DNA of 64,000 nucleotides from Paralvinella palmiformis (Eukaryota; Annelida; Polychaeta; Terebellida; Alvinellidae): assembly GCA_025642065.1 (NCBI GenBank), contig JAODUP010000051.1, positions 634,001 through 698,000 on the forward strand, given 5' to 3'. The position numbers were made by a program, and so were the translations under genes. How positions within the stretch are numbered: the stretch's first letter is position 1; each line of letters opens with the position of its first letter. The notes below the pieces were generated by a model. The model was given only the letters and a program-made list of their open reading frames with translations, did not search any database and had not been told where the DNA came from. This document shows, one piece after another, positions 14,541-59,841 of the stretch.

Positions 14541-14583
<43 letters not shown>

Positions 14584-14594
14584 ACACACACACA
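14541..14594. repeat. (CA)n microsatellite
   Basis: An almost pure dinucleotide tract with one interruption (catacaca). It lies in the first 220 bp of the presumed intron after exon D. Confidence 0.95.
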
Positions 14595-14759
14595 AGAACT
14601 CTATACCCCTCCCTACCTATTATTAGAGTAATTACTTTTGTTCAAAATAACAAACTGATCCGATATCGTACTACATTGACATCACCGTCGGAGACAATGA
14701 CAACAACACACACATTTAGAACTGGTATTATTATACACGCATACAATAGTGGCAATTAC

Positions 14760-15318
14760 CTGAGGAGTCAACGGGTGCAACAGAACTGGCGGTACTCTCC
14801 GTCGTGCCATCTTCACATTTATGATGACAATTATCAGATAGTAATCCGCTATTCCCTAAATGATGTTCCCCCAGACCGTAGACACCTATCTGGTGCCTGT
14901 CATCCAGACGCTGATGCGCGACCTTCGCGACCTTGGAGAAGCCTTCCGACCTAGACTTCAGGCCATAGGCGACCACGCGACTGGACTGCGACCTGACCAG
15001 TTCGCTGTCCGACCGGATCCGAGCCGACCTACGGCCGCGGATCGTTCGCTGTCGCCGGAAGGTCGGGATCCGCTGGAAGACGTTGTCATCGTCCGGACCA
15101 GGAGATTCGTATCCAGGATCGCAGGACGGATCGCACGACTGTACCGGATCTTCCGGCGATTTCGCCGAAGTGTCTGTTCCGGCTTTCAACAGATCGTCGT
15201 ACGACTTGCCCCTCCGATCGAACGATGACGTCGCCGGTGACGTATCACATGACGTCATTAGGCCCGATGTCGTCCAACTAACTGACGATCGGCCGAGCGC
15301 GGCACAGGTGTGGGACAT
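14760..15318 (-). CDS. Candidate first coding exon D (186 codons, unknown N-terminus)
   Basis: ATG at 15318 opens a GC-rich frame to the donor CTCAG|GTAATT, 186 codons plus 1 nt (phase 1). Composition and lack of repeats make it look coding, unlike its neighbours. Visible features: SFDRRGKSYDDLLKAG (about residues 32-47), an acidic stretch ESPGPDDDN, then a basic block FQRIPTFRRQRTIRGRRSAR and RIRSDSELVRSQSS. I recognise no named domain. The antisense strand is also open for 122 codons, as often happens opposite GC-rich coding sequence. The phase-1 end matches both PDZ exon 5 and exon 23475. It could be a later alternative start of the RhoGEF-like gene or the first exon of a separate gene. 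Confidence 0.55.
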
Positions 15319-15800
15319 CGCCTCACGGTATACTCCCTGTCATCAGATGAGAAAACGACTGCTCCTCATGTCTACCGGCTGATCTTCCGGACATTGCTTC
15401 CTTAAAGCTGACGGTTCATAACACGGCTCGAGAATAGACGTACATATACTCTATAATCATTGATAAATACACAAATAATCACAAAACGGGAATCCATACG
15501 AAACGAAACACCTCAGCATCTTCACTCCCAACAACGAATAGCGACCGACGCCGTTAACGTCCTACTGTGTGTCTGACGCGCGGCGGCCAGTCGCCAAACA
15601 CACACATACACACACGGAGAATCGCAGGAGAGATCAAACTTCGTCTTTCTAGCACCGAACCCGCCGTGTCACAACACCCACCCACCCGTCGACGACGTCA
15701 GACATCGGCAAGTGCTCATTGCCCGTGTGCGTGTTTGTGTGTGTGCGTGTCGTCCGTCGTGAGCTGGTAAAAACCTTCGCGGCGACAGCAATTGATCCGA
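15319..15800 (-). promoter_or_regulatory. Possible CpG-rich promoter/5' leader of exon D
   Basis: Just upstream of the ATG at 15318 the sequence becomes rich in CG dinucleotides (for example gacgcgcggcgg, cgtcgacgacgtca) against an otherwise AT-rich background, up to about 15780. This is the expected side for a promoter. No TATA box was identified with confidence. Confidence 0.35.
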
Positions 15801-17710
15801 ATTGAAATCCAACTTAACCAAAGAATGGCACCCACCACTACCATCAACACATGCCGGCCATTAACGATTCCTATTAGCCGAGAGACCAGGAACACACCTA
15901 CCTACCTACGCACAGACACCAGGAGCGAGTAGGCTACAGGTGATCGGGGCCGTGTAAACACAGCCACACACACACACACACGCACGCACACTCTGCTGGT
16001 CGAGGTAGTCGTGCCAAATACATGATCCTATCAGGACCCATATTGCACTCAGCCACGACACTACCGCCACCGGCTCCACCAACCACCGGCTCCACCAACC
16101 ACCACCATTATCATCACCACCGGGACCGACTCCACGGGAGACCAGTAACGATAATCCCAACAACACCTTAGACTGGACGACGACGGGACCACCGACGAAC
16201 ACACAACCCTCTACGACATCAAACAGAAAATGTTAAAAAATGTCAAGTTTAAAACCTTTCCCGAAAACTACACACACACACACACACACACGAAGAGAGA
16301 GAGAGAGAGAGAGAATCATCTAGTTGCCATTCAGATCATTATAACATACTAATTGGGATGAAGTACATTCACTTGAGCAGTCTTCTTCTCCTGTTAATGT
16401 CTGACAATAACCTAAACAAAAACCTTATCGGACATCAAATAGGTCGGCAACTCACACACTTGAACACATACATACACATACATACACATACGTACAGACA
16501 GACAGACAGACAACTGGCAAAGTCCACCGGATGATAAATAACAAATCTTCGTCAGAGACAGAGGTGCCACCACCCCCCAGGCCGCAATAAAAGACAACGG
16601 TGTCAACAACAACAACAACAACAACAGCAGCAGCAGCAAACAAATTAAAAACAACATATAACAACCTGAAAGAGACCCGGATCGCTGCCAAAATCTGGAT
16701 TCGAATCCTTCCCCGGCATGCCCCCGCTGTATCTCCTGATGATTATTTCCAAATCCCTATCACCGAGAAATACGAAGTCATCTTCCTCTGATTGAGCCGA
16801 GCTACTTAACATAATGTTCATCGAACTATATACATTATGTATATATGTTTATAAATAAACACTTATACATATTACATTTGTGGCAGCGCATAAAGTCGCG
16901 TTGTGTTGGTCAATAGAGAGAGACGATTTCCGTCACATACAGAAACTATCTAACTAACCAACCGGCTAGGTGTGTGTGTGCGTGTGTATGAATGTGTGTA
17001 TATATGTATGTGTGCCGGTGCTGATAAAACCGGGCTTAGACTGCAAAACTGACGGGAATATTTCAGACAGACAAACAAACACACATACATACATAGATAG
17101 ACACACACAAACAAATATGCAGCTGAAAAGAACGTCAAAAGATTAAGGCGAAGAACCGCCTCTCTAAGGTGAACCCTCGGCGAAAACAAAACCAAAAATC
17201 GAGGTCCACAAAAACACATTAGAAACACTCGGGCCCTGCTCATCGACCATACCATCATGGTCGATGCTCTTCTTGATTTAAGAAACAAAAGCCATTTACA
17301 GTTGGCTAGAGAGCGTTTCTCATCCTGGTCTGTATGTGTCGGTGACGTGAAAACCGTCCATTTCGAGGGGAGAGATCCTGCTGGCCTGGTTGATGACGGC
17401 ATTGGTGCTATGACATCTCCGAACTGTCGTGAAACACCAACTGAGAAACAAACACACACACACACAGAGAGAGAGAAAGAGAGAGAGAGAGATGCTGGTT
17501 CTGTCAAACTGGACCAATGATCAGTGGCGCTCACAGACGACAGACCCGTAAGGTGTGATTTTTTTTTAATTTAAGAAGTTTGCTGACTTGACTGAAATTA
17601 CACCAAAATAAAGAAACTTGGTCACTTAACGCTGGATAACTTTTTTTTAAATCACCCCCTCTCTCTGCCTCTCTCACTCCTCTCTCTGTCCATTCACCCC
17701 CCTCTCTTAC

Positions 17711-31512: not shown

Positions 31513-31570
31513 ATTTGATGAGTTTCACAACTTCCCCATGGTTAAATTTTGTCACTAGTGTTCCATTCAC
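31513..31570 (-). CDS. ARHGEF11/12-like: PDZ-RhoGEF-like gene, exon 5 (end of the PDZ)
   Basis: The acceptor TTTCTAAG|GTG and the donor CAAAT|GTAAGT bound 58 nt, phase 0 in and phase 1 out. It encodes VNGTLVTKFNHGEVVKLIK, the VNGTxV strand and the alpha-B helix of the PDZ; the His opening the helix is in the class I position. The last strand (in vertebrates SGSYVALT or similar) must be in the next exon to the left, which I could not find. A (TA)n tract of about 32 bp starts about 13 nt after the donor in the intron. Confidence 0.93.
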
Positions 31571-31871: not shown

Positions 31872-31921
31872 CTTGAGGATACGGTCCCCAACCTGAATAC
31901 CAGCCTTCGCAGCGGGGCCAT
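31872..31921 (-). CDS. ARHGEF11/12-like: PDZ-RhoGEF-like gene, exon 4 (middle of the PDZ)
   Basis: A 50-nt exon lies between a strong pyrimidine tract with TTTTAG|AT and the donor CTCAAG|GTACAC, phase 1 in and phase 0 out. It encodes NGPAAKAGIQVGDRILK (first residue split), matching the conserved PDZ segment xGAAxxAGVxxGDRIIK. The GDRI turn and the small-residue helix start are intact. Intron 3, between this exon and the one at 35181, is about 3.26 kb and holds two old SINE copies. Confidence 0.93.
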
Positions 31922-35180: not shown

Positions 35181-35285
35181 TTTCCTTTACAGATCGGACA
35201 AAGACGGGATTGTCACCACTAACTGATAACCCATAACCTCTCTCATCTCTGTGTATGATCACCTGTTTGGTCAAGGCAAGTTCAT
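35181..35285 (-). CDS. ARHGEF11/12-like: PDZ-RhoGEF-like gene, exon 3 (N-terminal half of the PDZ)
   Basis: The acceptor TATTCTTTCAG|ATGAA and the donor GGAAA|GTAAGT bound 105 nt, phase 1 in and phase 1 out. Translation reads DELALTKQVIIHRDERGYG and then LSVSGDNPVFVRSVKE. The GYGLSV stretch is the carboxylate-binding loop (GLGF motif), and SGDNPVFVxSVKE is close to wording characteristic of vertebrate PDZ-RhoGEF (ARHGEF11). In this family the PDZ binds C-terminal tails of plexin-B and some GPCRs at the membrane and brings the RhoA exchange factor to them. This short exon is the strongest identification in the window. Confidence 0.93.
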
Positions 35286-36456: not shown

Positions 36457-36542
36457 CTGATACTGGCGATGTCTCTGTCTTCGCTTCGTTATCATCCTTG
36501 GCATCTTTCTCCTGTTTTGATTCTTTGCTCAGCGAACCAAGT
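36457..36542 (-). CDS. ARHGEF11/12-like: PDZ-RhoGEF-like gene, exon 2 (charged linker before the PDZ)
   Basis: The acceptor ATCTTTCTTTAG|A and the donor TCAG|GTAAAC bound 86 nt. The exon enters in phase 2 and leaves in phase 1. It encodes a hydrophilic Lys/Glu/Asp-rich linker (LGSLSKESKQEKDAKDDNEA, then KTETSPVS). It accepts both upstream long exons in frame and reads directly into the PDZ exon at 35285. It is the common point at which alternative N-termini would join. The boundaries are visible in the sequence; the gene identity comes from the PDZ that follows. Confidence 0.85.
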
Positions 36543-38307
36543 CTAAAGAAAGATTGAAATATCGATATCTTAAACACAAAATGACATGGGCCATGAATAA
36601 ATGCAGAAAACACACACATCGGAATAAAGGTGTGATAACAACGCTGCAATTATTGCGGATGCAAAATGCAAACCCAACCATCAAAATAGGATGTTTGTTA
36701 ATAAGATTAAGACTGTCAGGTTTTGTTTTAGAACTGAAAATTCTAACAACAGTGTAACACCATCACTTAGGATGACCGCTGTGACATAAGAGATTCTCAC
36801 TCAATAATGAGAAAAATCTCTAATAGAGATTATACTGGATTACAGATGAGGTTAGCTAAGACATGCATACTAGTATAGTAGTAATAACATACAAATATTG
36901 ACTCAAGGAGCATTCTGAAAGTAGCTTATCTGAGCATCTCTCATCCACTTAAGCACAAGACACGAATGTATAAGACACATATTTATGTTAATATTTTTGG
37001 AACATCACACATATTAAATGACACTTTATTGTATGAAAACCTTCAAAACAGCACAAACAAACACATCAGAAGAGGAAACTAGATGGAATATTGTTAAAAA
37101 GACACCATTAAAACATCATTAATGGAATACAACACACGGCTCATTTACATAAACGTATCAGTCTCGTGACTGCGTCCCAGCCAATGTAAATGGCAAGCTC
37201 TTCCGAGCAACGAACAATAATCCAGATATAAATCTTGTAGTCAATTAGATAATGATTTAATCGTGAAGAATAATTCCAACAATAACTCGCAGCACTCTGT
37301 GACGCGTGAACCTGTTCCCAAATGAATATTCCTACCCACGAATTTCAATTACTGCCACCAAGATGGCATAAATGATATAAGAGCAAACAGCAGTAATGTT
37401 TGAATAGGCTGGGAACAAACTGCGAAAACTACTCTTCGTGGTCCCTTGGAAAGTTAGCAAATTTACTACATGCTTAATGCGATATGACCTTGTATACATA
37501 ACATATTATTGATATTTGCACCCATCCCAGCTTTCTCCAATGCTGGCTCATAAACAAGTTAATGAAGTATTGATAACCTGCATTGGCTGAGGAATGCCAT
37601 AAAACATATACATAGCGAGAACCATCCCTAGTAGGGCGTGGGATCGGGGGGGGGGGGAGAACCTCAGTCATTGCTGGGCCTCAGGAACATTAAGAATAAC
37701 TAAGTCACTTGGTTTACTTTTGAGGGTATCCTCCCTTAGGTTTTCATTGGTTTAGTATTTTTTCAAGGTATGGGTTCTGCATGAACTTATGTGGATTGAC
37801 TCGCGTATCTTTAAATTAAGTAAACTTAACACAGGTCAGTATGGTATCACCACCCACCACAACCAATAAACTTCTCATAACAGTTATAGGGTTACAACAC
37901 CAGATAACAACGTGGTGTGTTAGTGATGCAGAACAACAACAACAACAACAGCAAAAACTCTAAAAGTGATAAACAAATTGTTATATCGACAGTTTGATGC
38001 CCCCATGCCATGATGTCACTCATCAGAATTTGTTTGAGAACCATGACCACGTAAAGATAGTTTTCACATCTTGATGAGAGAAATATGCTCTGAAATGCAC
38101 TTGGAAATGATAAAAACCTTTCTATTAGCTGGTGTGCATAAAAACTAAATAATAATTGTTAAAATGCCACACTCCAGAGCAATCTTATAACCATATTCAT
38201 ATACAAGATCTCAGTTGACAGATGCACACTTGGTTTAACACAAATCAATATTAGTTTGGTAACACGCAAGTCAACACCATGTTCAGTATTCGGACCTCAA
38301 CACTTAC
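36543..38307 (-). other. Intron between exon B and exon 2
   Basis: 1,765 nt, GTAAGT...TTTAG. Mostly unique AT-rich sequence with a poly-G/C run at 37645-37658 and a short CAA tract at about 37935. For exon A transcripts the intron would be about 15.4 kb and would skip exon B. Confidence 0.75.
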
Positions 38308-39798
38308 TTTATTCCTTCATTGTCTTGATAAACATAACACCAACGTTTGCTGAGTTCGTGACCTTCACTTTCGGCTTCCTTGGAACGCAAAATTGCCCGG
38401 TCATCCTCTGAGGGATGCGACAACTTCATGCCGCGTTCAACTGAAAGTGACCTCGGCTTGGTCTTCTTGTCGCGTCGCTGCATGCTGTCGGGTGACTGCT
38501 GTCGGCCGCGTCCCCGGTCCAGGAACTCGGACAGCTTGCGGCCCTTCTCGCTGAGCCAAACCATCGGCTGCCATGATGTATGGTGTCCATCGTCGACATT
38601 GGATTCCGACTCCTGAAACGTATCTCCATCACTGGCACACGTAAATGAATGTGCCATCCTATTGTTCCTCTTGTCGACTGCGTCATCCCCATAACAACGA
38701 CTCAATTCATCTGTGGACCGACTCTGCATACGCAGGAGAGTACAGTGATCACTGGGAGATCCATGAGGCGAGTCAACCTGCAGGTTGTACTTGGACACTC
38801 TGGTGTCCTCACATCTTTCAGATGTATCCAGATTTACCGGCGGTGTGTGTGAAGGGATACCTGCCACCGGTTGGTGCAGCAGAGTGCGCCGAAGGACCAT
38901 ATCTCGACTGTGGGCCCTCATATAATAACTTTGGCATGGGATTCGACTCGATGTTTATTGGGATGATCCGACAGTTGGTCAAATTCTGCTCTAACTGGGT
39001 CGGATCAGAGGTCACCCGAAGATGACACGCACCGGAGGGTCGATCGGTTAGATCGCCGGTGTCTGATAATGCCAAGTCAGCGCCACCAACAGATCTGTCA
39101 CCCCGTCCCATGCTAAAGCTGCGAGCTCTCATTAGATTGTGTCTTCCAGATGTCCTATCTTGCTTCTCGTAACCATTCCACCAATAGCGTCCTATACCTC
39201 GCCGATCTAAAGTCATTGCACCGCCGAGTCTATCTCTGGCTGGTGACGAGCTTGAGAAAACATCCGACTCGACTGAGAACCCAGTTCGTAATGGTAAACT
39301 GTTGCTCACTGGATAATACGATGGAGGCAACAATCCCTGTCTTGTATTTACTGAGGATGCCTCAACTGCTACGGGAATCCTTGTCGCGGATATATTAGAA
39401 GAATTTTCACTTTGTTCACCGACATATTTCTCCCACGGTTGAAAATGACCACTGAAGGGTACACTACAACTGGAAGGTGTACCCTGTGCTTCGCTTGAGG
39501 GCAATGGTACCTCTGTTTGACCTGCCAAACCAAGTGATATACCAGAATCCCTTTCACCTGGTTCCGTGCTCTCATTGGATTCTGGAAGATGGTCTACTGG
39601 AGCCACGCCACTTTCTGCCACTGGAATGTCGTCACCTGATTTGGCCTGGCGCTGTGCTGCTAGGTGACGCTGCTGCCATCTGCCTATATTCTCTGAATGC
39701 GACCGATGAACTTTGACACGCCGCCGTGGTACAGCCAATCTGCTGGCCTCGGAGCGGTCAAGTTTTGAGGATGATGGTTTGCTTTTGTTTTCAGACAT
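38308..39798 (-). CDS. Candidate first coding exon B of the PDZ-RhoGEF-like gene (Ser/Arg-rich N-terminus, with a frame switch)
   Basis: ATG at 39798 opens MSENKSKPSSSKL, followed by basic, Ser-rich, apparently disordered sequence (for example RRRVKVHRSHSENIGRW). This frame stops at 38818. A second, shifted frame is open from before 38921 to the donor AAA|GTAAGT at 38307 and looks equally protein-like, ending SKRWCYVYQDNEGI. A mini-intron 38860-38800 (GTATCC...CACCAG, 61 nt) joins the frames exactly as GGR-VSK, giving 476 codons plus 2 nt. A one-base assembly or genomic indel is the alternative. The phase-2 end fits exon 36542 (AA|A, Lys). I see no catalytic domain. In vertebrate PDZ-RhoGEF and LARG the sequence before the PDZ is short, so a segment this long would be a lineage feature. 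Confidence 0.72.
38800..38860 (-). other. Possible 61-nt mini-intron inside exon B
   Basis: The donor GGCAG|GTATCC (first intron base 38860) and the acceptor GACACCAG (last intron base 38800) remove 61 nt, a length of 1 modulo 3. That is exactly the correction needed to pass from the upstream frame (stop at 38818) to the downstream frame. No pyrimidine tract worth the name precedes the AG. A 46-nt variant ending at the AAAG at 38815 would also correct the frame but is very short. A one-base sequencing indel is the competing explanation. Confidence 0.4.
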
Positions 39799-41130
39799 GA
39801 TCGGAACTGGCCACCAGTCAAACCTTCATTGGTCCAATAAGTACCGTACAGTCTTAGCAACTGATCACTAATGCATGATTAACATGTGTCACTTTTAGCC
39901 GGAAATCATCCACGGCTATTTTAACACCATGTTTACGTTGAGAAACATCCCGAAACCAAATCCGCAGATCTATCACGTGGCATTCTGAAATATCGCACAT
40001 CTAACAATTAAACACAACCACTCACGATGAATTGACGTTTCAAGCATCAACCAAGACAATGGCGATCCGTGCTAAGTAACCTCTGAGATGGAGAAATTAA
40101 CAAGATCGCAGCCTTGGCATACATCAAGCAGCCTTCCTTCATCTCGGGTACACCTCTCGTTGGAATCATCCACGCAGGTAGCGCTCATAAAATTTAGCAG
40201 TTCAATTAACATCCATTCCCGGCACAATCCCCCGGCTAGATATCAGACACGTATCCAGATTCGCAAAAACAATTGAACAAATCCAGAAATTAAGCACTTT
40301 CCTGACGGGGAGATTTCTCAGTAGGTTCCACTTGGTACACGTTTCTAGTTGCAGCGCCGAGGGATGTTTCTTACAGTAATTAAGGAGTACAAGAGTGAAT
40401 AGAACAGCCGCGAATCTACTAAGGCCACCAAAATACCCCCCTCCCCCATACTCTCTAAACCCCCACCTCCTTCGATCACATCGCCTCGATCTCTGAGAGC
40501 TAATGAACTAGCTACGGTAACAGCTGGAGATGATATAAACAGACATTGGACATTTGGTGATGATATCGGAATACAGCTGGAGGTGGGAAGTAAACATTGT
40601 GCACGTAACTGGCCATCGCGTTCACCTGAACATTGGGGTCGTTCACGAACCTTTTACATAAGACAAATCGCCGAGACGTGCTGGCCATCACCAGTGGGGC
40701 ACATTCAATTGTCCATAATATTCACAGCCAAAGACCCGGGCCGACTTCTGAAACGGTCTCCGGTCAAATTTTAAGACGGCGAACTAACATTTACGACGAT
40801 GGGTCAGCGCTGGGAGCGAGGCCTCGGTTGCCACGGTAACCGATCCTCCTCACCTGGGAAGCATTTCGCAGTTTCCGTGAAATCGAACGTCGAACATTCT
40901 TCGCGCAAACGACCACCATATTGTGTCCCGTTACCAAACCGCAACAATGTTACGCAGACATTATAAATATTTCTATCACTGATAAACAGCGCCGAGGTCA
41001 AGTCGCAATGTCCACGGGAAGCAATGTTCACGGGAAGCAATGTCTTTAACAAATTTCTGCGAAATGGTATTTGGTGTGAAAGATAACCCGTGATACCAGT
41101 CTGTCACATACAGTGCAAGATAGCTGGATA
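39799..41130 (-). promoter_or_regulatory. Possible promoter region of exon B
   Basis: Non-coding, largely unique sequence upstream of ATG 39798. It has several CpG-containing stretches and an RFX-type X-box-like inverted repeat, GTTGCCACGGTAAC, at 40827-40840. No clear splice acceptor in frame precedes the ATG, which supports a first exon with its own promoter. Confidence 0.3.
40827..40840. promoter_or_regulatory. X-box-like motif
   Basis: GTTGCCACGGTAAC is an inverted repeat of GTTRCC half-sites with a 2-nt spacer, matching the X-box bound by RFX-family factors. It lies about 1.03 kb upstream of ATG 39798. A 14-bp motif can occur by chance in 64 kb, so function is unproven. Confidence 0.3.
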
Positions 41131-41569
41131 AATAGAGAACCTCAGTTGGAACCATACCACCATCTAATACCATATTTACATATTAAAATAGTAAAATATC
41201 AAAGAACCCATAAGCGTTCGAACTAGATCTACGCAGGAAGACACCTCTTGTATCAATTAATTTCTCCGCAGAACATTTCTACTGCACCAAAACCGTGCGA
41301 TTACCTAAATTTGGAAACATACCGACCTCATCCAAAATTTAAGAGAACCGCCCCCTCCCCCGCCAAACAAAACAATAACAACAACAACAGAACAATAGAA
41401 GAAGAAAAAAACAACAGAACAACTACAAGAAAAACTCTCACCAGAAACATTCGCCATAATATTCTAGTTCTAAATTTTCTTCCACAAAACACTGATAAAT
41501 CCAACATGGCTGCCACCATAATGACCAATCAGCACTTTTCAACTGGTTGCTCGCTAATTCCACTGCATG

Positions 41570-41572
<3 letters not shown>

Positions 41573-41641
<69 letters not shown>
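41573..41641. repeat. Long (CA)n microsatellite, about 69 bp
   Basis: Uninterrupted CA tract, the longest pure dinucleotide run in the window. Confidence 0.97.
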
Positions 41642-41643
<2 letters not shown>

Positions 41644-42581
41644 TAACCATTCTGCATCAAACATAGAATAAAATACAAAATTCAACTAAAAATATATTTG
41701 TATCCCCCTCCTCTCCGCCGTACTCCAATCAGGGAGGACAGAGCTTACCATAGTCGATGATCCTAGTCTATTGATCTCTTACCATCACAAAAACAACCAT
41801 CCTCAATAACGAACAGTAACGCGTACACGGATCATTCGCCATTAAAAACGCCAGCTCCAGTATAAACAACGATCGTTAATAACAATAAGCGTTAAAATAA
41901 TAACTATATCCTGAGATCATGATCTATTCCTCTACTATCCAGTCACCACCAGCTGACCATCAAACGACCCATCTCCACTCCCCATGCCACTCAACTGGGT
42001 CCAGAAGTTCTCTGGCTCTATTTTTTCACTGGTCCAGTACCACACGAATAAGAGTGTGCGCATTTCTGTGTATGTGTGTGTGCGCGCGCGCGTGCGTATG
42101 CGATATAAAGGTGAGCTCACGGAGTCGAAAGGTAAACGATGCCGCAGGATGGGATCCAACCAGTGGCCAAAGATGATTCCAGCCATAGATATATAGCACA
42201 CACTGGTTCTTCCATCTGAGGCACTGCCAGTATGCTCCTTTACGAGGCTCCGCCGATGTACTTTTCTGTTCATCAGCTGACGTATTTGTTGGCTTATAAC
42301 CATTTGCCGTTAACAGCTATCAGCCTTAACCGTTGTGTACATGCTTTCAGATATTCACTCGCCACTGAAAATGGTTTTAGTTCGTCCTCTTTTTTGTATC
42401 AACCGATGTGTTAAAATTATATAGAAAAAAGCGTTTAAATGAGAATATACCTTTGAACTTTACCAGTACAGAAATCGTCTCTAATAACCTTCACACGAAA
42501 CTGTGAGCAACAGGTGACAAAAACGGAATGAGATATATAAATATAGCATCTCTGATTGGATCTTACGAGAAAGAGTGATTA

Positions 42582-42582
42582 T

Positions 42583-42659
<77 letters not shown>
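42582..42659. repeat. (TC)n(TA)n compound microsatellite
   Basis: About 41 bp of TC followed directly by about 37 bp of TA. Confidence 0.95.
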
Positions 42660-42661
<2 letters not shown>

Positions 42662-43058
42662 CCGGTACATCACACCATAATGTTTGGACACAGTTGTGTT
42701 TTATATTATCGTTGGGAATTAACAACAATATCATTTCAAAGCAAACCACTTATCAAATGCCAGTATAATTATTACATTACAGCAATTATATATATATATA
42801 TATATCGTTTTGCTAATTGCTCCGGTGGCGAAAGATCTCTGCGCTTATGGAGTATTTCGACAGCGAAAACATCTTTGACAACAATATTTAATATGATACG
42901 TGTATGGACAATGGCCGATATGCAGTTAAGTACAAAACTGTTGGTCGGTATCGCCAATCGAAATAAATCGTTCGTGCAAAAGGTTCGGAAACTGTTAAAA
43001 AGACATTGCGTATTATTATCACACACGCGGAAATATATCTGTTTCTTCTCTAAGGACT

Positions 43059-43203
43059 GGTGAGACATTACACATGTCTCAGCAAGAAAAGTCGCCACTC
43101 TGGATTCAGTGCCCTGAAGAAACGTCCAGAGTTTGAATTCACGGTTCGAAATTATCTGTGCCTGTGTCGTATTATACACAGTTAAAACACAACCACACAC
43201 ACA
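43059..43203 (+). repeat. CA-tailed dispersed element, best-preserved copy
   Basis: ggtgagacattacacatgtctcagc (hairpin-capable) - cactctggattcagtgccctgaagaaacgtccagagtttgaattcacggttcg - ctgtgcctgtgtcg, then a CA-rich end. The 25 nt just before it (43028-43052) are shared exactly with 24713-24737, which there follow another CA tract. Confidence 0.6.
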
Positions 43204-43348
43204 TATATAGTGACGGAATTGGCTCAGGTCACTAGAACATACCGATCCACAAAAATCCATCAATTTATAGATCCACAAATCTACACATTCATAAACCATT
43301 AATATGTAACGATCAGAAACATGCGATAGTGGACACACACAAACACAC

Positions 43349-43455
43349 TGATGAGACATTAGATCTAAGTTGGAAAAGTCACTCCACTGGATGAACTGTT
43401 TAGAGATTATAGTCAATATTAGTGATTCTCTATCTATGTCTACACACACACACAG
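43349..43455 (+). repeat. CA-tailed dispersed element
   Basis: ctgatgagacattagatctaag - cactccactggatgaactg - tattagtgattctctatc, then (CA)n and (GA)n. It lies about 145 bp after the previous copy in the same orientation. Confidence 0.5.
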
Positions 43456-43614
43456 AGAGACAGAGAGAGAGAGAGAGAGAACCCACTTCTTAAACAAAAC
43501 TGTAGAACGGCTTGGCCTTGCTGATGCATTGCAGAAGAGATTAGAGAGTGCACAATCCAGGTGAGAGCAGACCTTGTTTCCACACACACACACACACACA
43601 CACATACATACAGG

Positions 43615-43646
<32 letters not shown>

Positions 43647-44796
43647 GCGAGTGAGACCCCAACTGCCGCTCCGGACATTCAGGATCCGAACGAGCAGAGT
43701 TCAGATGGAAGAAAACACTGCCGAATCGGTGGCCAGCAAGCTCCCGGGCATCACTATGATAAAGCTCCTAATTAAACCCATCCAATATATCCTAGGACAG
43801 GCTCACCGAGACATTAACCATCATTATCACCTTGATATCTGATCTAGTCTACAGCAGGCTAATAGGGGCTCCGGCTAGAACAACAAAACACAAATACCAG
43901 GGCTACATCAGCCACAACATGATGTTTGTGTTGTAAACATATTGTACACCGAACGTAAGTGATAGGTTTCAACAGGGGTGCAAGTACAGCTCTTTCTCTC
44001 TCTCGCTCTCTCTGTGTGTGTGTGTTTAGTTGGAAAGGTATGTTGACTGGACACACACACACACACACACACACATCTGGATAGTTAAGGTCAGTGATAA
44101 AAGTGTAGGTGTATGTACAAAGGTATTGCCACATTCCAGGAATGATTGGAATAACTTGTCAGTAAATCCCAGCCTGCCGTCTAGCATTAAACTACACTTT
44201 ATTCTGCTGGCAAAACATATTCCTTGCCAAAAAAACAGCTCACTTCACTCCTGACGGTTTCTTCAACAACGCAGCACTCTTTCTGGGGTATCCTCCGCCC
44301 CCCACCACTCCGCCCTCCATCCCAGCTCCCACTATCTCCTTCCCAACCACCCCCACCCATTTAAACATGCAATCAAATGTGTACAATAATTGATTCCTGG
44401 AATTGCGAGGCTTTCTAAAAATAATTGACCAGGATGCAGATAGCCCGCTCTAAATATACCCAAAACATAATACGGCTCTCCCTATGACACATATTTCTAT
44501 CCCGAACGATAACGTAAAAGAATAGGGATATGTTCGTGGATCCAGTTGACAAACCAACAATACCTACAAATACGTCACATGTACCTACAGTGATGGCCAC
44601 TGCAGCAACTTGCCCACCAGAGGAAGACATTAAGTCACATCAAATTTACTCATTTCAATACAGTGCTCATCCGTTGTAAGGATCTTTTGTTATGTAACCT
44701 ATTAATTACACCATGAGCTGCAGGTTGGGGAACATCTCAGAACTCGAAAAAAAACCAGGAATGAAGCGTGTTCTGTATTTAGTCTTGGCGTTGTTC

Positions 44797-44930
44797 ACAC
44801 CTGGGACATATGATGGAGGGGCAACTCTCTAAGGTAAACACCGCACAAACACAGCTACGAGTTGGAATTCTACCTTATACTGAAGGTTTACAACACAGCG
44901 CTATAACCATTTTGCCATCGGCCCACTTTC
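44797..44930 (-). mobile_element. tRNA-like SINE of another family
   Basis: On the minus strand it reads gggccgatggcaaaatggttatagcgctgtg (A-box type), then a B-box-like tagaattccaactcgtag. The body, aggggcaactctctaaggtaaac on plus, does not match SINE-1. Confidence 0.45.
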
Positions 44931-45874
44931 ACAATATGTAATTTTTTTAATTCTATTTGGAGAACTGCAGGTAATCCATTGTATAATTAGTGGTATTCAC
45001 AGCACTATGTTGTGTGTGTGTATGCGCGCGTGCGCGGATGGGTGTGTGTGTTATACACTAAGATATTTTATTTTGTGATTTATGATGCTGATTAAGACAA
45101 AGTGAGTTTCACACTTCTACCTAGCGCCCTAGTTCTACTGTCAACTGTCCAGGATCAAACTGGCATTACCGCATAAGCGACAATAATTGATTGCCATCAA
45201 AGGTTCAAGTCCAGTAACGCGAGTGCGCGAGTTAAAACCGAACGCCTCCAAGTTTTCAGCCGGGCACTTTCCAACTGAGACAGTGCAACCTTCATCAAAT
45301 TGTTATATAATAGTTAATACACCAAAACTATAGCGATCCGTGAGTCATTAGCTGAGTGTGTAGATTCAGCTATAGTTAAATCTGGATTTCCATTCTGAAA
45401 GCGTCACAATTTTAGTGTCTGTGATCTAACAGCATCTCTGACATCCGAACATCTGACTGGTCCCGAAGGTCCCAAATGTAACAGTTTCAGCAACTGAATG
45501 GGCACTGGTCAGCCGTGGGACATACGGGCCCATGGGGCCGTTCCCTAGATAAACAACCCAACGATCACAAGTAGGACTCCAGGGATTCCAACTATCGGTG
45601 GCCTGAACGTCTCCTCAGTGCAGTACTCTTGGTGGTCACCGACCCCAGATCCATACAAGAAGTCCACGATAATGACAGTCCGATTATATAAAACTTATTT
45701 TGGCTTCGATCAATGTAAATAACAGATACAATTCCATTCGAAATTTGTTTATTTATCCCTTAGTAAAAACTGAGGACTACATAATGAAATAGTTTTTTCT
45801 TTCTCAATCGCACTGATCATACATTGATTAATTGACAATTTCCACCCCTAATATCACCCATTATTATATTTATA

Positions 45875-46046
45875 GCGGTAGCGTGCCGGACCACAGATCA
45901 CTACCACCCGTGTTCGAATCCCGGCGTGGGCATATCTGAAGGTTGTTTCGTCTTTCACTTCGTCTCATTACCTTTGGAGGTCGCTCGGCCCATTTAGCCT
46001 ACCTTGTGCATAAAAGTGGCCATAAAAAAAATCAATCATCATCACC
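45875..46046 (+). mobile_element. SINE-1, young copy in plus orientation
   Basis: The only plus-oriented copy: gcggtagcgtgccggaccacag, the B-box gtgttcgaatcccggcg, the body cattacctttggaggtcgctcgg and gtgcataaaagtggccataaa, then an atc-rich 3' tail (caatcatcatcacc). It shows the element's direction: tRNA head, unrelated body, ATC tail. Confidence 0.8.
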
Positions 46047-47443
46047 AAAGCTTAAGTTATAGCTAAGCTGTGATTTTAATTGCCGTTACAAATTTCCGCC
46101 CATCTCAGTCACCACGACAAGAAACATCTATGCCAGATCAAAGACAGTTCTACTTAAGCAGACAGTTTTAAGACTGACGGAGTGGCAGATTGACTGATGA
46201 ACAATGGCTGAAACATCGGAGAAATAGCCCCGTCATCCAACCAAGCAATAGCTCATATGACCAAAGGTCGAGCAAACCAAACATAAATATGACGATGAAG
46301 AGATATATGAAGTGAGAACTGATTAGCAGGGAGCCTGTAATCAGTATAGCCACATAAACACCGGCTGTGATTGGTATTTGGCTCAGGAACGGCACTTCCG
46401 TGTGAAACCTTTTCGCTAACAATACGAGATTCTGTTGTTAGAACTGTGAAAAAATACCAGATCAAGCGTGTGAATGTATTGATTTGATGGGGGAAATGCA
46501 CTTAAGTGTAAACAAGAACGACACGTGGGAAGTTACTGAGGAACGCAGACACAAACACGGGACTGATTCTTGGGATTTTGGTACAATACATTTCTCACAA
46601 CATTTCATTGTATGAATAAAATCCCTGACACTGAGTGACAATTATCTTCCCGAACCAAGAACATCCATTCTGCGGCAAAAGAAGCCAATTGGCCTAATAT
46701 TTTCCGCCACAATAATAAACACATAACACGGAAACAACCACTACCGGGGTCACTGGCCTAGTATTAGAAGCAGAAGCGTCCATGGCAACCGAATCCCAGC
46801 CGTTCTACCATCGCAGTGCAAACAAAACACAGCCTGACCGAATGACTGCAGGGTCTAAGTGATCGGGCTAAGACGGACTTGTAGTTCGGTTCTGAACACC
46901 ACCAGTAACAGTATCCCGCTCCACAAGGCCATCTCTACCGGTATACGGCACACCCTCACTCAGCCGGATGGAAAACAGATAAAACTCGCCATGACCGAGT
47001 TTCGTCTGGAGCTCAGTCGCAGGATTCAGTTTCTGCAAATCACACTTCCGCTGATACGCAGACTAGTTTATGTCATGGATATCACGCGCGCGCGCGCGCA
47101 CACACACTCACCCACTCACTTGCACTAAGAAATTGTCTGAATAGTAATCTTCATCAAACAAAATGGATGCTATAATAAGCCTTGACAAATCTGCTATTAC
47201 TCGTAAAGTGATGTAAGAACACTGATCATCCATGTCATATTTTCCAGTTAGATGCCTGCTGATCCAGGAGGACAATGTCCCTCATAAGCAGCCTATGAGC
47301 CATATTAGTATCAGATATTAGTTATCTACATTTAAGATGTTGTTTAATTCTGTCAGTTTTTCTGTAATAAACATCTCATTACTGTCACCTGCATGAAGAA
47401 ATATTACAATAATTACTATTCTACATTACTTACTTTAAAGTGT

Positions 47444-47487
<44 letters not shown>

Positions 47488-47742
47488 GTTAATGAGCTGA
47501 TGTTCTCATCCGTACCCCTCATCTATTCTACGAGATGTTGCCCACCCAGTACTTCAGCTCCCAGAAGTTAATCCTCCCCCCTTTCCAAAGGATGTTATCC
47601 ACACGTGTTGCCCACATGTGGCAGATCTAACATCAGATGTTGCCCACACATGTTGACTTTCCTGTCATACTTTGTCACTATCATAGTGGCTGTGAGAACC
47701 CTGAATTAGTCAGTGTTTGGTATGATAGTGGTATGATGGTGG

Positions 47743-47986
47743 GTATATATATTTAATCGATTATTGACATTTTTATGGTACAGCATCCTCCTCACCTCTT
47801 CTAGCTGTGCGATACATCCACTTATATTTAAATTTTAACTAACATGGGATATCAAGATTATATACTAGTACCCTTTTTCTTCTACAATCGAAGTTTTCTT
47901 CTACGGGCATAATATCTATTCACGGACTTTTTGTTCTAAATGGATTTGTGATTTTTCAGGTTTTCCAGGATGCGTGAGAACCATGC
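47743..47986. mobile_element. hAT-like MITE, right part
   Basis: Follows the copy at 6565 from atatatttaatcgattattgacatttttatggtac through tcttctacgggcataatatctattcacgg to aggatgcgtgagaaccatg. The left half is missing. A (TA)n tract follows at once. Confidence 0.65.
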
Positions 47987-48277
47987 CACTATATATATAT
48001 ATATATGTCAGTGTGTAACATACTCTGCTTGACGTTGTGGACAAAGACATTTATTATTAACAATCCCTTCACGACACAGAGAAAATCTTGCCTGTGCGTT
48101 CTTGGTCATGGGCTGACTTCCGGATAGATAGAGTTTACTCATTTCGTTATCGTTCCCACCCAAATATACCCTAAATATCTTATCAAACATTCCTTTATAT
48201 ATATAATACATTATCTTTGCTATCACTATTCCCAGCAGAAACTGTCTTCTCCTCCCCTCACCCAGACATCATTGTTT

Positions 48278-48800
48278 AAAGGGACAGTCCACCCTCAGAA
48301 AATATTTCTTATGCTTAGAACCGTAACCAAAAATTTCATAATAATAATAACGAAATATACCTGATATCATAGATACAGGGAAATAACCCAAATTACTGGA
48401 AGGCCGCCATCACGGCTTCACCGGAAGCCAGAATCGAAGGCGGGAAGGAGAAAACTGAAATGCCCAGACGTCACATCGGCGCTCTGTAGACTGACGCGGA
48501 TTATAGTTTCTCTTGAGCGTTAATTTCCTTCTGACTCAAACTGATATGGTTGTATATCATTCATGACGTAATTTTAACAAGATAATGCCATTTAGTTCTA
48601 GAATAATTCTTTGCTCACGCTTGTTTACATGCTTTTGTACGGGCTCTACGGACATCAGGTCAACCGGATACGCTCAAGTGACGTCAGCATTCAGGAGCTT
48701 CCGGTATCTGTCTAGCTTCAAAATGGCGGCGCCCAATGGGCCATTAAAAGTCGATTAATCAGCACTTTAAACAACAAATGTATGAACTATAACAATGTAA
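48278..48800. mobile_element. Possible TTAAAGGGACAGTCC-type repeat element
   Basis: Starts tttaaagggacagtccaccctcag, a start common to many short animal DNA-transposon derivatives, and continues with mixed-GC sequence (gacgtcacatcggcgc, caaaatggcggcgcccaatggg). The opposite terminus was not found in the following 600 bp, so the right edge given here is arbitrary. Confidence 0.35.
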
Positions 48801-51223
48801 AGCGAACACTCTACAAATCAACGTCATACATTCCCATCCTAACTGTAAGCTGTTGTCATTTCTAACTGGAAACGTTCAATCGATTAAAGATCTCTAATGA
48901 CAAGACATAATCACGATGAGGTTCTTCTTCAAATAGTAATATTCTATATTTAATAAAGCGCCCTTACCATCAGAAGCTATTCAAAGGCGCTGAACAGTGA
49001 TACCCCGAAAAATAGGTCTGTAAAAACCCGACAAGAGATTTAAAAGAACTGCACCATCGATAAAAGAATTAACGCGTCTTATGTCACCGTTGTTGTTTGT
49101 AATTAGTATTTGTTGTTTTAATAATTCATTATTTCACTTATTTATATTAGTATGTACGCCAATGTTCCAAGTAACGAGACACACTTAAGTACAGGGAACT
49201 ACTTAATAATTATTTGACACAATCTACATTAAAAATGGGTAAAGGTTGTTCTGTTAATATCGCTGAAGCAAGTATTGGTCACAAACTGTATTGATCTTCT
49301 CAGTAGGTGACATATTTTGTTATAAAGTGTTTATATCCGATTTTCCCAGTTTCATTCCTATTAATGAACGGATGAAACTATCTGCAGTTGAACAAACGAA
49401 TAAGGAAACTACAAAAGAAATGACAGGAAGATGACTCCTCAAACAGACCAAATAAATATATTGATGGAATGAACAGAGGGTAATATCCAAATAATTCGTT
49501 CTGTCCACTGGCTAGCTTTGACGGACGGATAATTTATATGAGTGTGTCAATGAAATAGTAGGGTTTAAGGATATATTGAGAAAAAAGGTCATTTGGTGCT
49601 GCCTCCTTTCCAACATTTGGGGCTTAAATCGGGACACTGTTGGCTATTCCTAGCTTCAAACCTTGATGGGGGGGGGGGAGTGTCATTAAAGGGACGAGTA
49701 AAATGTCATCACTGATAAATAGCACACACACACACACACACACACTTGAAAAATAGTAATTTCAGTTTTATCTAGTCAAAAGAGTTATGTTATTCAGGAT
49801 GAACACATCATGCTATTTTTCTCCTGTTATTTTTATAACGAAATTGTATTATATAATAATTTTGTAATATCTTTGTTTAAATACACATTGCCTGCTTACT
49901 ATTCAGTTTGTTGTTATTACACCACAATCCAGTACGATTAAGTAATATGACACATAATATATAGTGAGATGGCAGCTAACAGGAGTTCGCGAAATTTAGT
50001 ATACACAACCCTGACAAGTAAATACTTCAGAACCATAAACTATAAACATGTTTTAAGAATCTAATAGAGTACTCATGTTATTTGGGATGAGTTCAATTTT
50101 GCCATTGCCTCGTTGATTGCAGCTAAGCGAATGATACATATATCTTGTTACATATCTCGATGTATAGGCTTTATTTTTTATTCAAGTAAACAGAACTTGG
50201 TCACAGTTCAGTCAGGTTTATAAACACAGCAAAAACCTGTGCCTTGTGCTTACGCCTTTACTGTATGTAGCACACACGCACAAACACACACACGCGTGCG
50301 CACTCACACACTGATGTACTTCAGCCTATTCTGAAATGCATTTTTGAACATTCGCGGAAGAATATATCTATAACACAGCCACAAAAGCAGACAAGAGACC
50401 CACAGACTGAAATGAAATTCCAGACGCCACTCATATCAAGCATTGACAACAATAAAATCAAGCCATATTAATAATTTGCCCCTTTATACGCAGGTTCAAC
50501 CATCAAGCAGTAAACACGTACAAATACAGCCACACTGAACAAGCCGTATAACCGTTGGATGTGTACTTTGGCTCTCTTCCGGGGCTGACTTTAAATCCTT
50601 CTTACCGAGCTAAATATAGACCCCAAACAGCGCCAGAAACCGTACAGGAGCTGAGCGAGTGTCGTAGCCGGACCCAGGAAATGGTTGGCCAAAGGTAGAA
50701 ATTCCGGACTGATAGCAGACGTACAGATTCTGGATACCATCTACCTGGAGACCAGAGTTTAGGTGTAGGTCACATCAGTTATGGTTCCTCTTTCTTATTA
50801 TAACATATTATAAACTAATTTACATACACGTATGGCTATGCGGTATTTTCCACTGGCAGTTTATTTTTTCCACATTTAACAGTAATAACACCGCATGCAC
50901 AGTTAGTAAGAATAGGGAAATGTTCCATGCATTAATAATATTAGAATTCATTCTCGGGTTGAGCTATCCAGAATAGATCAGTGCTGCCCCCTTTTGTACA
51001 TAATACATATTTAGCATCTAAAAGGTGTGTGTGTGTGTGTTACGCGCGTGTGTGTACAAATACATGCATGTAAACTTAGCCAGTATAACATATATATATA
51101 TATAAACAACAATGAGTGCTGGCTATCTAATAAACTACTAAGGGTCATCCTGGGTGAGCGCTGATGATACTCAACAGCCATCTCTCTCATCTCCAGAAAA
51201 GGAAAATTCCTTTTAATAAACGA

Positions 51224-51393
51224 TGATGATGATTGATATTTTACGGCCACTTTTGTACACAGGATAGGCTAAATGGGCCGAGCGACCTCCAAAGGTTATG
51301 AAGCGAAGTCAAAGATGAAACACCCTTCAGATGTGCCCACGCCGAGAGTCGAACTCTGTGGTCCAATGTGCTACCACCTAGACCATGGAGGCA
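51224..51393 (-). mobile_element. SINE-1, young copy, nearly full length
   Basis: From the gatgatgatgattgat tail (plus-strand view) through tttacggccacttttgtac, aatgggccgagcgacctcc, gaagcgaagtcaaagatg and a B-box with substitutions (gagagtcgaactctg) to the head complement gctaccacctagaccatgg. Confidence 0.78.
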
Positions 51394-51651
51394 CCGCACA
51401 TTTATTAAACAGTTTAATATGTTGTCTCACTGACAAGTTACTGGCAAAAACCTAGTCAAGACTGCTTCATATAATAACAAAATATAACTGGCTTTCATTA
51501 AATTGGGTTAAATGTGTCTTCATCATTATAATAGAAGGAAACCATACAGCCAATTGAAGGCCATAAAGTATTAGATTAATATTTTATGACCATCTACCTA
51601 CTATGGTTGATATCGCACACACACACACACACACGTGTGTGTGTGTGTGTG

Positions 51652-51816
51652 TTGTTCTAAGGCCACTTATGTGACCTGGTAGTCTAAATGGGCCGAGTAA
51701 CCTGCAAGGGTAATAAGGTTAAGTGAAAGATGAAATACCCTACTGATACCAGAGTTTGAACGCCTGTACTATAGATCTGTGGCCATCCACACTATCAGTT
51801 AGGCCATGGAGGTGCA
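51652..51816 (-). mobile_element. SINE-1, old copy beside a CA/GT palindrome
   Basis: ctaaggccacttatgtgacc, aaatgggccgagtaacc, agagtttgaacgcctg and ctatcagttaggccatggagg follow the family order. Directly left is (CA)n joined to (GT)n (51615-51652), itself an inverted repeat. Confidence 0.65.
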
Positions 51817-51985
51817 CCAGATATTTTTATGTGTGTGTGTGGGGGGGGGATCCCAAGGAGTCTGAGGGGTGATCTTGAGATATATATATATATATATATT
51901 TCAAAACCACAGTTCAGTGAAATCAGTGGTGTTTAAATTAAGTGTTATAATATTATAACAACATAATCAGTGACATTCAGCTTAC

Positions 51986-53625
51986 CTTTTGGACAAGTTT
52001 GGTATTACAAGTGTCGGACGACTACTGATGACAATCTGATCATTCTGTTGACCTGTCCCAGTTGAAGGACATTCAACGGCATTGCCTATCGGATTTATCC
52101 CTTGTGCATAGTCCGGCTTAATATTAGTATCACTAATCTGCGGATGCGCGCGTACTGCGACCCGCGACAAAGCATCCGAAGAGATAGAAATCGTATGGCG
52201 AGGCGGCAGCATCACGGTGTCACCAGCATTGTCCAGAAATCCCCGAGACCTGAGCAACTCCTCCCATCCACCAGGTGGCAGCACGCGATGTTTACAGTAT
52301 TCCTGCCACTCGGCAGGTGGCACTACACGCTTCGTTGGATGCAGCTTCCAGTATCCGGGATAGACGGATGCCTCGTTGAACGAATCGCTCTCCACGACGT
52401 TGCTGCTCAGAACGAGCAGCGGCGGGTCTTCTGGATCACCGGAACACTTCTCAGTTGCGGTGCTCCACTCGCCTTTCACCATCTCAATAAAACAGGACAC
52501 CTTCGGCGTGACGATTTCATTTTCCTCGTCACTTACACGACGTACATCCTCTGATTGACTGAAATGATCGGTTGTCACACCTCTAACCTCTCCGTCAACG
52601 ATATCCATATCCCCGAACGGATCGAACTGTTCTGTCCCCAGCTCCAGTTGACTGTACTCTGAGTCACTGGAGCTGGACGTCTGTCCTGGTCTCCCGGGAT
52701 CTTTGGTCGCATTGGCCAGATCCTCGGCTGACAACGACCTGCCCAAATGGACGCATTGCACGGGGCATTCGGTACTATTTTCATGGCTCTGAGCTTCCAT
52801 AATGTCGTGGTTAGAACCCGACGATCGTGAGTTGCCTACAACTCGCTGTATTACGGCCGTGTGATTCTCTAACCCCGAGCTGCCCGCGTCCGATTTATTT
52901 ACAGAGGACTCCACGCTATCATCGTGTACTCGTCGTGATTGTTTTACAATACCCTCAGTGCTGACATCTTTCGACGAATCCTCGCAGCTATCGGAGGCAG
53001 CTCCTGGTAAGCATTCAGAATGGCCGTTTATGGACAGAGCCATATCGAAGCCACTTTGTGTGATCGTGTCGGAAGGATTATCCACACGAAAAGCACAAAC
53101 ATCGCCGGCCTCTTGGTTCAATTCGCCCACAACTTCATTCCGCAAATCGGTCCGTTTGTTTAAGCAGTTTTGTTTGTCCTGATCGCTGTTCGTGTCTTCC
53201 ACTTCATGATCTTCATCGATGTTCGTGTCATCTTCATTTATCTGCTCGTCTGCCTGTTCTGCTTCAATAGTTTCATCTTCAATATACTCCTCCTCAATTC
53301 TTCCATTCTCGTGTTCTTCACTTTTTACCGTATCATCATCATCATCATCATCATCTTCACGATTATCACCTTCGTACGCTTCGTCGGCGAAATTTTCACC
53401 GCCAATAAAGTCATCTTCGAGGTCTATCTGACTTCCGTGACTGGGAGGAGGCTGGTCGTTGGTCGTTTCATCTTCAGCGACAACCGCCTCATCACTGTCC
53501 ACAGAGGTTATCACGATCTCAGGTATGTCCCACTTAGGAGGCATCCCGTCAGCTGGCGGGATCAGTTCGTGGATCTCCTCCGCGAGCTGCTCGCCATCTT
53601 CGGAAATGCTCGGCAGAGTCGCCAT
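51986..53625 (-). CDS. Candidate first coding exon A of the PDZ-RhoGEF-like gene (long acidic N-terminus)
   Basis: A single open frame runs from an ATG in a good context (gaaaATGGCG) to a donor AAAAG|GTAAGC, giving 546 codons plus 2 nt (phase 2). The first half is strongly acidic and low-complexity, with a run of eight Asp near residues 90-97 and then many Glu/Asp; the middle is Ser-rich. Near the end a short motif occurs twice in tandem (RVVPPAEWQEY, then RVLPPGGWEEL, residues about 433-460). I recognise no named domain. The phase-2 end fits the acceptor at 36542: AG|A makes Arg and reads on into LGSLSKESK and the PDZ. Splicing to 39798 instead would meet a stop, so the two long exons look like alternatives. 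It could also begin a different gene. That it is coding is well supported; its membership of the RhoGEF gene is inferred from strand, phase and order. Confidence 0.7.
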
Positions 53626-54900
53626 TTTCCTACAGTCGACAAAGTCACACCTTTACCCCGTGCACATCCAACAGTGCGGCGCTGTCACATAACTCGCGAC
53701 AACGAACTAACACCAAACTTCCACAACAACTGTCTCACTTCTCTCCGAACCGACACACCATCACCCTCTCAATCGGAACCCAACCCGCTATGTACAACAA
53801 CAAAAACGGGCGTCCCGCTTACCGATACCGAAATCCTGACGCCAGTCTGGACAAGAATGGATTCATTATCTCTGGATCGGTGAAGTGAAGACTTCCGATG
53901 TCGCTATCCTACCGAGACGATCTGCCGTCTACCGGCCATAAACACGGCCACAAGTGAGGGCCTAACTCCGGGCGAATGGACGGGTTTCATTTCGCCATTT
54001 CGCGAAACGAACACGGGGTCAAGGTACGAGCGAATTCCGCCATCCAGCATTCGTATTTGGCGTTAAACCGATTGCGACAGGGATGCCCACTAAAAGTCAG
54101 CATCACCGAGCTGAACAGCCAGAGCCTGGCAGCGGAATACGTCACACAGATATATATATGCAGTACTCTCTTCCGTGTGTGCCGAACTCGTTTCTATTCA
54201 GACCACACAGTCGAAGCGGCGTAGTCGCCTCAAAACACACGACACCAATAGATTCAGGTAGGGGTTCTCACGTAACCTGTGCCATTGCTAGACGCCTATT
54301 ATGCCAGGCGCAGCGCACACCTGAGGCAGGTTTTGGTAGGCGGCAAATTAAAAATATCCTCTATATACCGCATGCTACGTGAATAACGCGCAGATAATGA
54401 CAGGTGCTGCTGTTGCTCTCGGCACACGGACGAAGCGAAATAGGTGACCGGTTGTCGCCGAGTGCACTGCCTCGTGAACAAACGGATGCAACCACCACCA
54501 CCACGACGACCACCACCATCTCAAAACGATATCCGCGCGTACAGCCGCCACCACCACCAACAGCACCACGTCTATCCAGCGTTCTGAACCTCAAAGATGA
54601 GGAAGCTTCGGAAATAAACCGAATCAAGCAGTAATACAACCCCGTCGCCGCTGAAAACTCCCTCGCCGCTCGCAATTAGCTAATCCGCGAAATACTTCCC
54701 GAGAAATGCCAAACTTAATCCGGTTATCCTCAAACAACAAAACAGATCCAATTGTTTTATTGTTGTCAATCACTCGGGTCCGCGGGATAACTCGCTAACG
54801 GCCCCGGACTTAAATAGAAACCATTCTGATTAGCCGGCGAAACAACTAGCGGAGAACAACAGCAGTCTAGTTCAGTGATGATAATGATGGTCATTCGTTG
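53626..54900 (-). promoter_or_regulatory. GC- and CpG-rich upstream flank of exon A (probable promoter side)
   Basis: About 1.2 kb upstream of ATG 53625 is richer in CG dinucleotides and poorer in microsatellites than its surroundings (for example tcgccgagtgcac, gcgggcggccgcgcgc near 54905). Open frames here, including a (Val)n/(Thr)n one over the CCA/GTG repeats at 54490-54570, are compositional. The transcription start cannot be placed from sequence. Confidence 0.4.
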
Positions 54901-55318
54901 CGCAGGCGGGCGGCCGCGCGCTCACACGCACGTAGACCACGATATGCCCATGATGTTTCGTTTCCAGCAATGTGCAGTTAACACGTATACTTCTGTAATA
55001 ATTGCGCCTTTGTATAATGTTAAGGTCCTGGACGGTGCCACATGACACACAGACACCAGCGACGGCTTCAATCATAACGGGGACAGATAGTTTTTTCCTC
55101 TCGCGCTCTCTCTATAACAGGTAACACACACACACACACACCGGCTGTTGTGGTTTACACAACATACAACGGTACGAAGACCACATATGTAACTATTAAA
55201 ATCGATGGAAAACAGAGCCTAGGTCGGCCGATGATAAAATATGCACAAACCATCATGTGGCATTTTTACTGACATTTAAACTAATGGCACATAATGGTTG
55301 TTATATAGTAGCGATCCG

Positions 55319-59612: not shown

Positions 59613-59841
59613 ATATGGGTATTTCTTCAATTGCAGACACTGCATCATAACCAACTGTTTACAGGTTTTAATAATCAATTTTATGTATTGATACTAAAAA
59701 GAGTGCATGTTTTATGCACCATATGCACCATATGGGTATTTCTTCAATTGCAGACACTGCATCATAACCAACTGTTTACAGGTTTTAATAATCAATTTTA
59801 TGTATTGATACTAAAAAGAGTGCATGTTTTATGCACCATAT
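59613..59841. repeat. Perfect tandem duplication, period 117 bp
   Basis: Copy 1 is 59613-59729 and copy 2 is 59730-59841. The 112 shared positions are identical by eye, from atatgggtatttcttcaa to tttatgcaccatat. Because 117 is a multiple of three, a plus-strand frame stays open through both copies, but it has no other coding sign. A 17-bp inverted copy of the internal ttgatactaaaaagagt lies at 59898-59914. Confidence 0.95.

Follow-up and report, generated by a model that had tools for sequence, protein, structure and literature searches.

An ARHGEF11/12-type gene of Paralvinella palmiformis with candidate alternative coding first exons

The gene and its conserved core

The DNA analysed here, referred to below as the window, is a stretch of 64,000 nucleotides (positions 634001-698000 of contig JAODUP010000051.1) from the 594-Mb genome of the annelid Paralvinella palmiformis. 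Coordinates are those of the window unless they are given as contig positions. Its minus strand carries the 5' half of a single gene, a genuine lophotrochozoan orthologue of ARHGEF11/12 (PDZ-RhoGEF/LARG). ARHGEF11 and ARHGEF12 link G12/13-coupled receptors and plexins to RhoA.

The conserved part of the gene begins with an 86-nt linker exon (36457-36542, minus strand) that reads LGSLSKES..., is entered in phase 2 and is left in phase 1. This is followed, each time in phase, by PDZ exon 1 (35181-35285), PDZ exon 2 (31872-31921) and PDZ exon 3 (31513-31570), all on the minus strand. After 34 kb, outside the window, comes the next exon of the gene (start at contig 631396, equivalent to window position -2604), which is in phase with PDZ exon 3. 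The original prediction had taken the exon at 36542 to be the PDZ exon; its entry phase was called correctly, and the exon itself is the linker, the PDZ domain being encoded by the three exons at 35285-35181, 31921-31872 and 31570-31513. When the PDZ domain was compared with solved structures, using a query in which one residue at an exon join was read differently, the best match was the PDZ domain of ARHGEF12 (E 1.1e-24). This match and the Pfam PDZ assignment identify an N-terminal PDZ domain of the LARG type.

The remaining core exons were sought in 100 kb fetched downstream of the window and were placed by tblastn with six orthologues as queries. The post-PDZ exon lies near contig 631.4 kb, the RGS exons from contig 623.7 kb, the C1 exon at contig 612.0 kb, the DH exons at contig 602.7-600.5 kb and the PH exons at contig 599.3-597.4 kb. 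The joined core pieces matched Pfam PDZ, RGS-like (PF09128, 119.7 bits), C1, RhoGEF (PF00621) and PH_16 (PF17838), and it is the last four of these, in exons past the window, that bear out the name PDZ-RhoGEF given to the gene from the window alone. The domain order PDZ, RGS-like, C1, DH, PH is that of the ARHGEF11/ARHGEF12 family, with which the gene also shares the linker before the PDZ domain. A placement of the DH-PH pair within the window was rejected, as only the PDZ exons were detected there and the pair lies downstream; guessed exons at 23.5 and 16.8 kb, proposed to carry on from the PDZ domain, were likewise set aside, the next family exon being the in-phase one at -2604. In a family tree (30 rows, 672 columns) the gene grouped with the lophotrochozoans (16 rows, support 100/99), where it stood without resolution beside Lingula and Owenia.

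The window also contains several tandem repeats. Two arrays of a 24-base unit, at 4935-5687 and 12321-13105, hold about 32 copies each and look unrelated to one another; because the unit is a multiple of three they create extended open frames without being genes. A 117-base sequence is repeated perfectly, as two tandem copies, at 59613-59841.

Candidate coding first exons

Three long open frames on the minus strand, here called A, B and C, are candidates for coding first exons of this gene. Exon A (51986-53625) has, as had been predicted, its own ATG, an uninterrupted frame of 546 codons and 2 further nt, and a strong donor in phase 2. The encoded segment is acidic, with 22% Asp plus Glu. An open frame of 546 codons was reached in none of 500 dinucleotide shuffles of the stretch, the longest shuffled frame being 213 codons, and the donor scored 7.1 bits, a value equalled or exceeded by 0.06% of 5354 minus-strand GT sites. 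A codon model trained solely on the conserved core exons (652 codons) gave exon A +0.184 bits per codon in its own frame, while each of the five remaining frames scored below zero. The shuffles and the core-trained codon model together rule out that A, and likewise B, are open by chance. Exon A has no stop before its donor and must splice to something downstream on the same strand. Its donor has the phase that the linker exon requires, and the junction of A with the exon at 36542 is in frame and reads Arg-LGSLS, Arg before LGSLS being the commonest residue pair at the linker start among relatives. A coding scan between A and B returned only five weak minus-strand segments (14.2-15.8 bits), which were not counted as exons because comparable segments appear on the other strand; the scan could have overlooked a small exon belonging to another gene in the interval from A to the linker. 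The linker is the likeliest partner for exon A.

Within exon A, residues 433-460 (52246-52329, minus strand) consist of two adjoining 14-residue copies, RVVPPAEWQEYCKH and RVLPPGGWEELLRS, that have no known relative. In a poor structure model of A two short helices coincide with these copies. Further upstream, at contig 701.7-705.3 kb on the plus strand, lie broken open frames that by eye resemble the remains of a retrotransposon.

Exon B had been predicted to be a single first exon, running from an ATG at 39798 to a phase-2 donor at 38308. This does not hold, as the frame opened by the ATG ends at a TGA (38818-38820, minus strand) and it is another frame that reaches the donor. There are thus two open pieces, both on the minus strand: B1 (39798-38861), with the ATG and 312 open codons plus 2 nt, which would encode a Ser/Arg-rich arm, and B2 (38954-38308), with 216 codons, which is in phase 2 at the donor at 38307. 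The two frames are offset by one base and overlap by 134 nt. The longest open frame of the B stretch (335 codons) was reached in none of 500 shuffles and a frame of 216 codons in five of 500. In the core-trained model B1 scored +0.146 bits per codon and the part of B2 from 38751 to 38308 scored +0.291 in their own frames; the other five frames of each were negative, save that one antisense frame of B1 gave +0.002 with slightly different ends. The donor of B at 38308 scores 5.2 bits, which 0.39% of the 5354 minus-strand GT sites reach. An AATAAA lies directly before it (38308-38313, minus strand), so that a transcript end in B, instead of splicing, is conceivable.

B as one exon therefore fails, and a candidate first exon with a donor in the phase of the linker results if it ends at 38861, or if the two frames are connected by a 109-nt intron or by an indel. 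A donor at 38861 is weak (0.4 bits) and is in phase both with the linker, which B1 alone would enter as Arg-LGSLS, and with the piece 38751-38308, a possible cassette of 148 codons in phase 2 on both sides. The 109-nt intron 38861^38751 that would connect B1 to this cassette has splice sites of 0.4 and 0.5 bits and gives a total of 142.8 bits, including these weak splice scores and before any intron cost. A one-base switch of frame gives 149.6 bits before any error cost, with its best position at 38905-38863, so the two descriptions score about alike. The small lead of the switch, the overlap of the two coding frames by 134 nt and the preference for a switch before the stop (10.8 vs 3.9 bits) are what would be expected if B held a one-base indel, either an assembly error that makes a working arm appear broken or a real lesion in a decaying arm, in which case only A (and C) would be used. 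Against this, other long open frames nearby are unbroken (546, 305, 563 and 1134 codons) and the intron requires no error, its phases fitting throughout. We regard an indel as a serious possibility, somewhat short of an even chance. B is found at one place in the genome and so offers no second copy for comparison. Recoding by +1 at the TGA would fit the offset, yet the codon scores favour a switch ahead of the stop.

Exon C (14760-15318, minus strand) sits on the same strand as the gene, within the 34-kb intron that separates the last PDZ exon from the post-PDZ exon. It has an ATG at 15318, 186 open codons plus 1 nt and a donor reading CTCAG^GTAATT. The post-PDZ exon requires phase 1, which exon C supplies, the predicted junction reading VDSS-A-GSYVALTLLGRP. 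Use of exon C would therefore give an isoform without the PDZ domain. C scored +0.232 bits per codon in the core-trained model, with its other frames between -0.217 and +0.034. The case for C is weaker than that for A, since its open length was reached in two of 500 shuffles and its 73.9 bits in the coding scan compare with segments of 45.8 and 49.8 bits on the opposite strand.

The linker boundary and relatives of the arms

The start of the linker was compared in relatives of the gene. From 158 different proteins collected, six were dropped: P0058, P0059, P0060 and P0062, which are scribble, LAP or LRR proteins, P0120, a fish read-through, and P0159, which begins inside the PDZ domain. In the 152 that were kept, the segment before the PDZ domain is 14-143 residues long (median 54). 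A simple pattern for the linker start matched 59 of them, and the residue before the motif was R in 51, K in three, Q in two and F in three; the F of P0026 comes from an FGSL that occurs earlier in the first segment and is a chance match, and P0133 and P0134 read PRLSSLS in the portion inspected. The motif as written is absent from the other 93, human ARHGEF12 record included. R, K and Q can all be encoded by NNA, which fits a phase-2 boundary before the A, the relatives being judged here from proteins alone. The protein comparison indicates that the linker entry exon is old, and a true first exon would agree in phase with the exon at 36542. In Branchiostoma lanceolatum records four different N-termini precede LGGLSKE (P0073, P0093, P0094, P0099). 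Four lancelet N-termini on one linker make alternative first exons at this boundary a known kind of variation in the ARHGEF11/ARHGEF12 family, and the arm switching proposed here would be like it. It had been suggested that long, swappable arms would be a new architecture. The length stands, arm A with its 546 residues exceeding the 14-143 found before the PDZ domain in the 152 relatives, whereas the swapping of first exons has the lancelet as a precedent.

Relatives of the arms themselves were sought in several ways. None of 7995 scored candidates proved to be related to exon A at E up to 1, and A, B1 and B2 compared with the 158 collected proteins gave nothing better than E 2.2. These searches depend on shared five-letter words, the closest species may be absent from them, and C was compared with Pfam only. 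No Pfam family was matched by A, B1 or B2 (E up to 10) or by C (E up to 0.001), and a PDB search with A gave no lead. A long arm was not seen in any of the full-length relatives (about 1554-4944 residues; 102 hits from 386 candidates), the sole one longer than 2000 residues being the fish read-through. Single-sequence structure models were poor, mean pLDDT being 39.8 (A) and 39.1 (B1). The highest-scoring ten-residue blocks were residues 451-460 of A (62) and 41-50 of B1 (69), the latter within a helix at 34-52.

Proposed alternative first exons and competing readings

Separate promoters at A, B and C were judged from GC and CpG content. A GC/CpG-rich stretch at 51901-55150 takes in exon A together with the 1.5 kb before its ATG; another, at 40201-41150, lies upstream of the ATG of B, with a further one at 38151-39500; a third region, 14551-16450, takes in exon C together with some 1.1 kb before its ATG. 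For A, the 1 kb upstream of the ATG has a GC content of 0.52 and a CpG ratio of 1.21; the corresponding values are 0.46 and 0.96 at B and 0.51 and 1.15 at C, pairs of values reached together by 0.8%, 4.4% and 1.2%, respectively, of 1-kb intervals in 194 kb (medians 0.38 and 0.67). In the 1 kb past the donors the values fall to 0.38-0.41 and 0.38-0.63. Low values were likewise found upstream of the last long frame of the gene (0.39, 0.44), the linker (0.35, 0.65) and PDZ exon 1 (0.35, 0.41), and high ones upstream of two long frames elsewhere, at contig 566.8 and 541.1 kb (0.52 and 0.95, 0.42 and 1.01). The 194 kb contain fourteen GC/CpG-rich stretches that are 700 bases long or longer; one of these is at A, two are at B and one is at C. 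The ten others and the two control frames with high values mean that the sign is not specific to promoters; the stretches upstream of A, B and C are compatible with separate promoters and are not proof of them.

The coding character of A, B1 and B2, the donor of A, the phase of the linker, the lancelet N-termini and the upstream GC/CpG content all support alternative first exons. Against these stand the break in B as one exon, the weakness of the splice sites that would mend it, the low specificity of the promoter sign and the failure of the searches above to find a relative of A or any long-armed relative. We consider the chances evenly balanced that this is one ARHGEF11/12-type gene with alternative coding first exons that place arm A or arm B on the same core.

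Exon A, and perhaps B, may instead be part of a separate same-strand gene that escaped recognition, with the match in phase to the exon at 36542 arising by chance. A and B are not tied to this gene by homology, the first segments of relatives are short and a single match in phase has a one-in-three chance. This reading nevertheless appears improbable, as no strong same-strand coding segment was found between A and B, A lacks a stop before its donor, and for all three long frames (A, B2 and C) the phase agrees with that of the exon to be joined. It is similarly improbable that a single transcript from a promoter at A holds A and B as successive exons, making a single arm of about 700-1000 residues: A can enter B1 at 39823 in phase to give 335 open codons, and A, the cassette 38751-38308 (phase 2 on both sides) and the linker join without a stop, but the two acceptors required score -1.0 and 0.5, whereas the gene's four known acceptors lie at 2.8-4.8, and B1 has its own ATG with a GC/CpG-rich stretch upstream. 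The earlier claim that splicing A into B meets an immediate stop applies to the AG before 39806 and fails for that before 39823. Three further AGs, before 38907, 38751 and 38631, share the frame of B2 and of its donor, and with 39823 these acceptors span -1.3 to 0.8.

Returning to alternative first exons, transcription starting upstream of 53.6 kb would include exon A, which would be spliced to the linker exon at the phase-2 boundary and so put a 546-residue acidic, probably disordered arm ahead of the PDZ domain. A second start, upstream of 39.8 kb, would give a Ser/Arg-rich arm, either B1 alone (312 residues) or B1 extended by the 148-residue cassette by way of the 109-nt intron. The core of PDZ, RGS-like, C1, DH and PH domains would stay constant, and the arm may alter the partners, the cell location or the regulation of the protein. 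One start, at exon C, may omit the PDZ domain. The fuller version, in which three promoters each have a long coding first exon, A (546 residues, acidic), B (312-460, Ser/Arg-rich) and C (186, replacing the PDZ domain), is more tentative and on balance unlikely; if true, it would mean that the same RGS-DH-PH core is directed to different sites, in some forms with PDZ coupling and in others lacking it.

A search of the literature for alternative first exons, promoters or isoforms of ARHGEF11/12 gave no lead in the material it returned. Kalirin belongs to a RhoGEF family other than ARHGEF11/12 and serves here as a working analogue, in which alternative promoters act on one RhoGEF gene. Alternative promoters and splicing of this one gene are reported to produce functionally distinct isoforms (PMC5385350).

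The unusual point at this locus is the length of the arms and not the switching, A alone adding 546 residues. If the model of alternative first exons is true, a conserved signalling core would gain new addresses, itself unaltered, by means of promoter-switched arms of several hundred residues. The locus would then show how such arms arise beside an old entry exon, and how the PDZ domain may be dropped by a start placed behind it.
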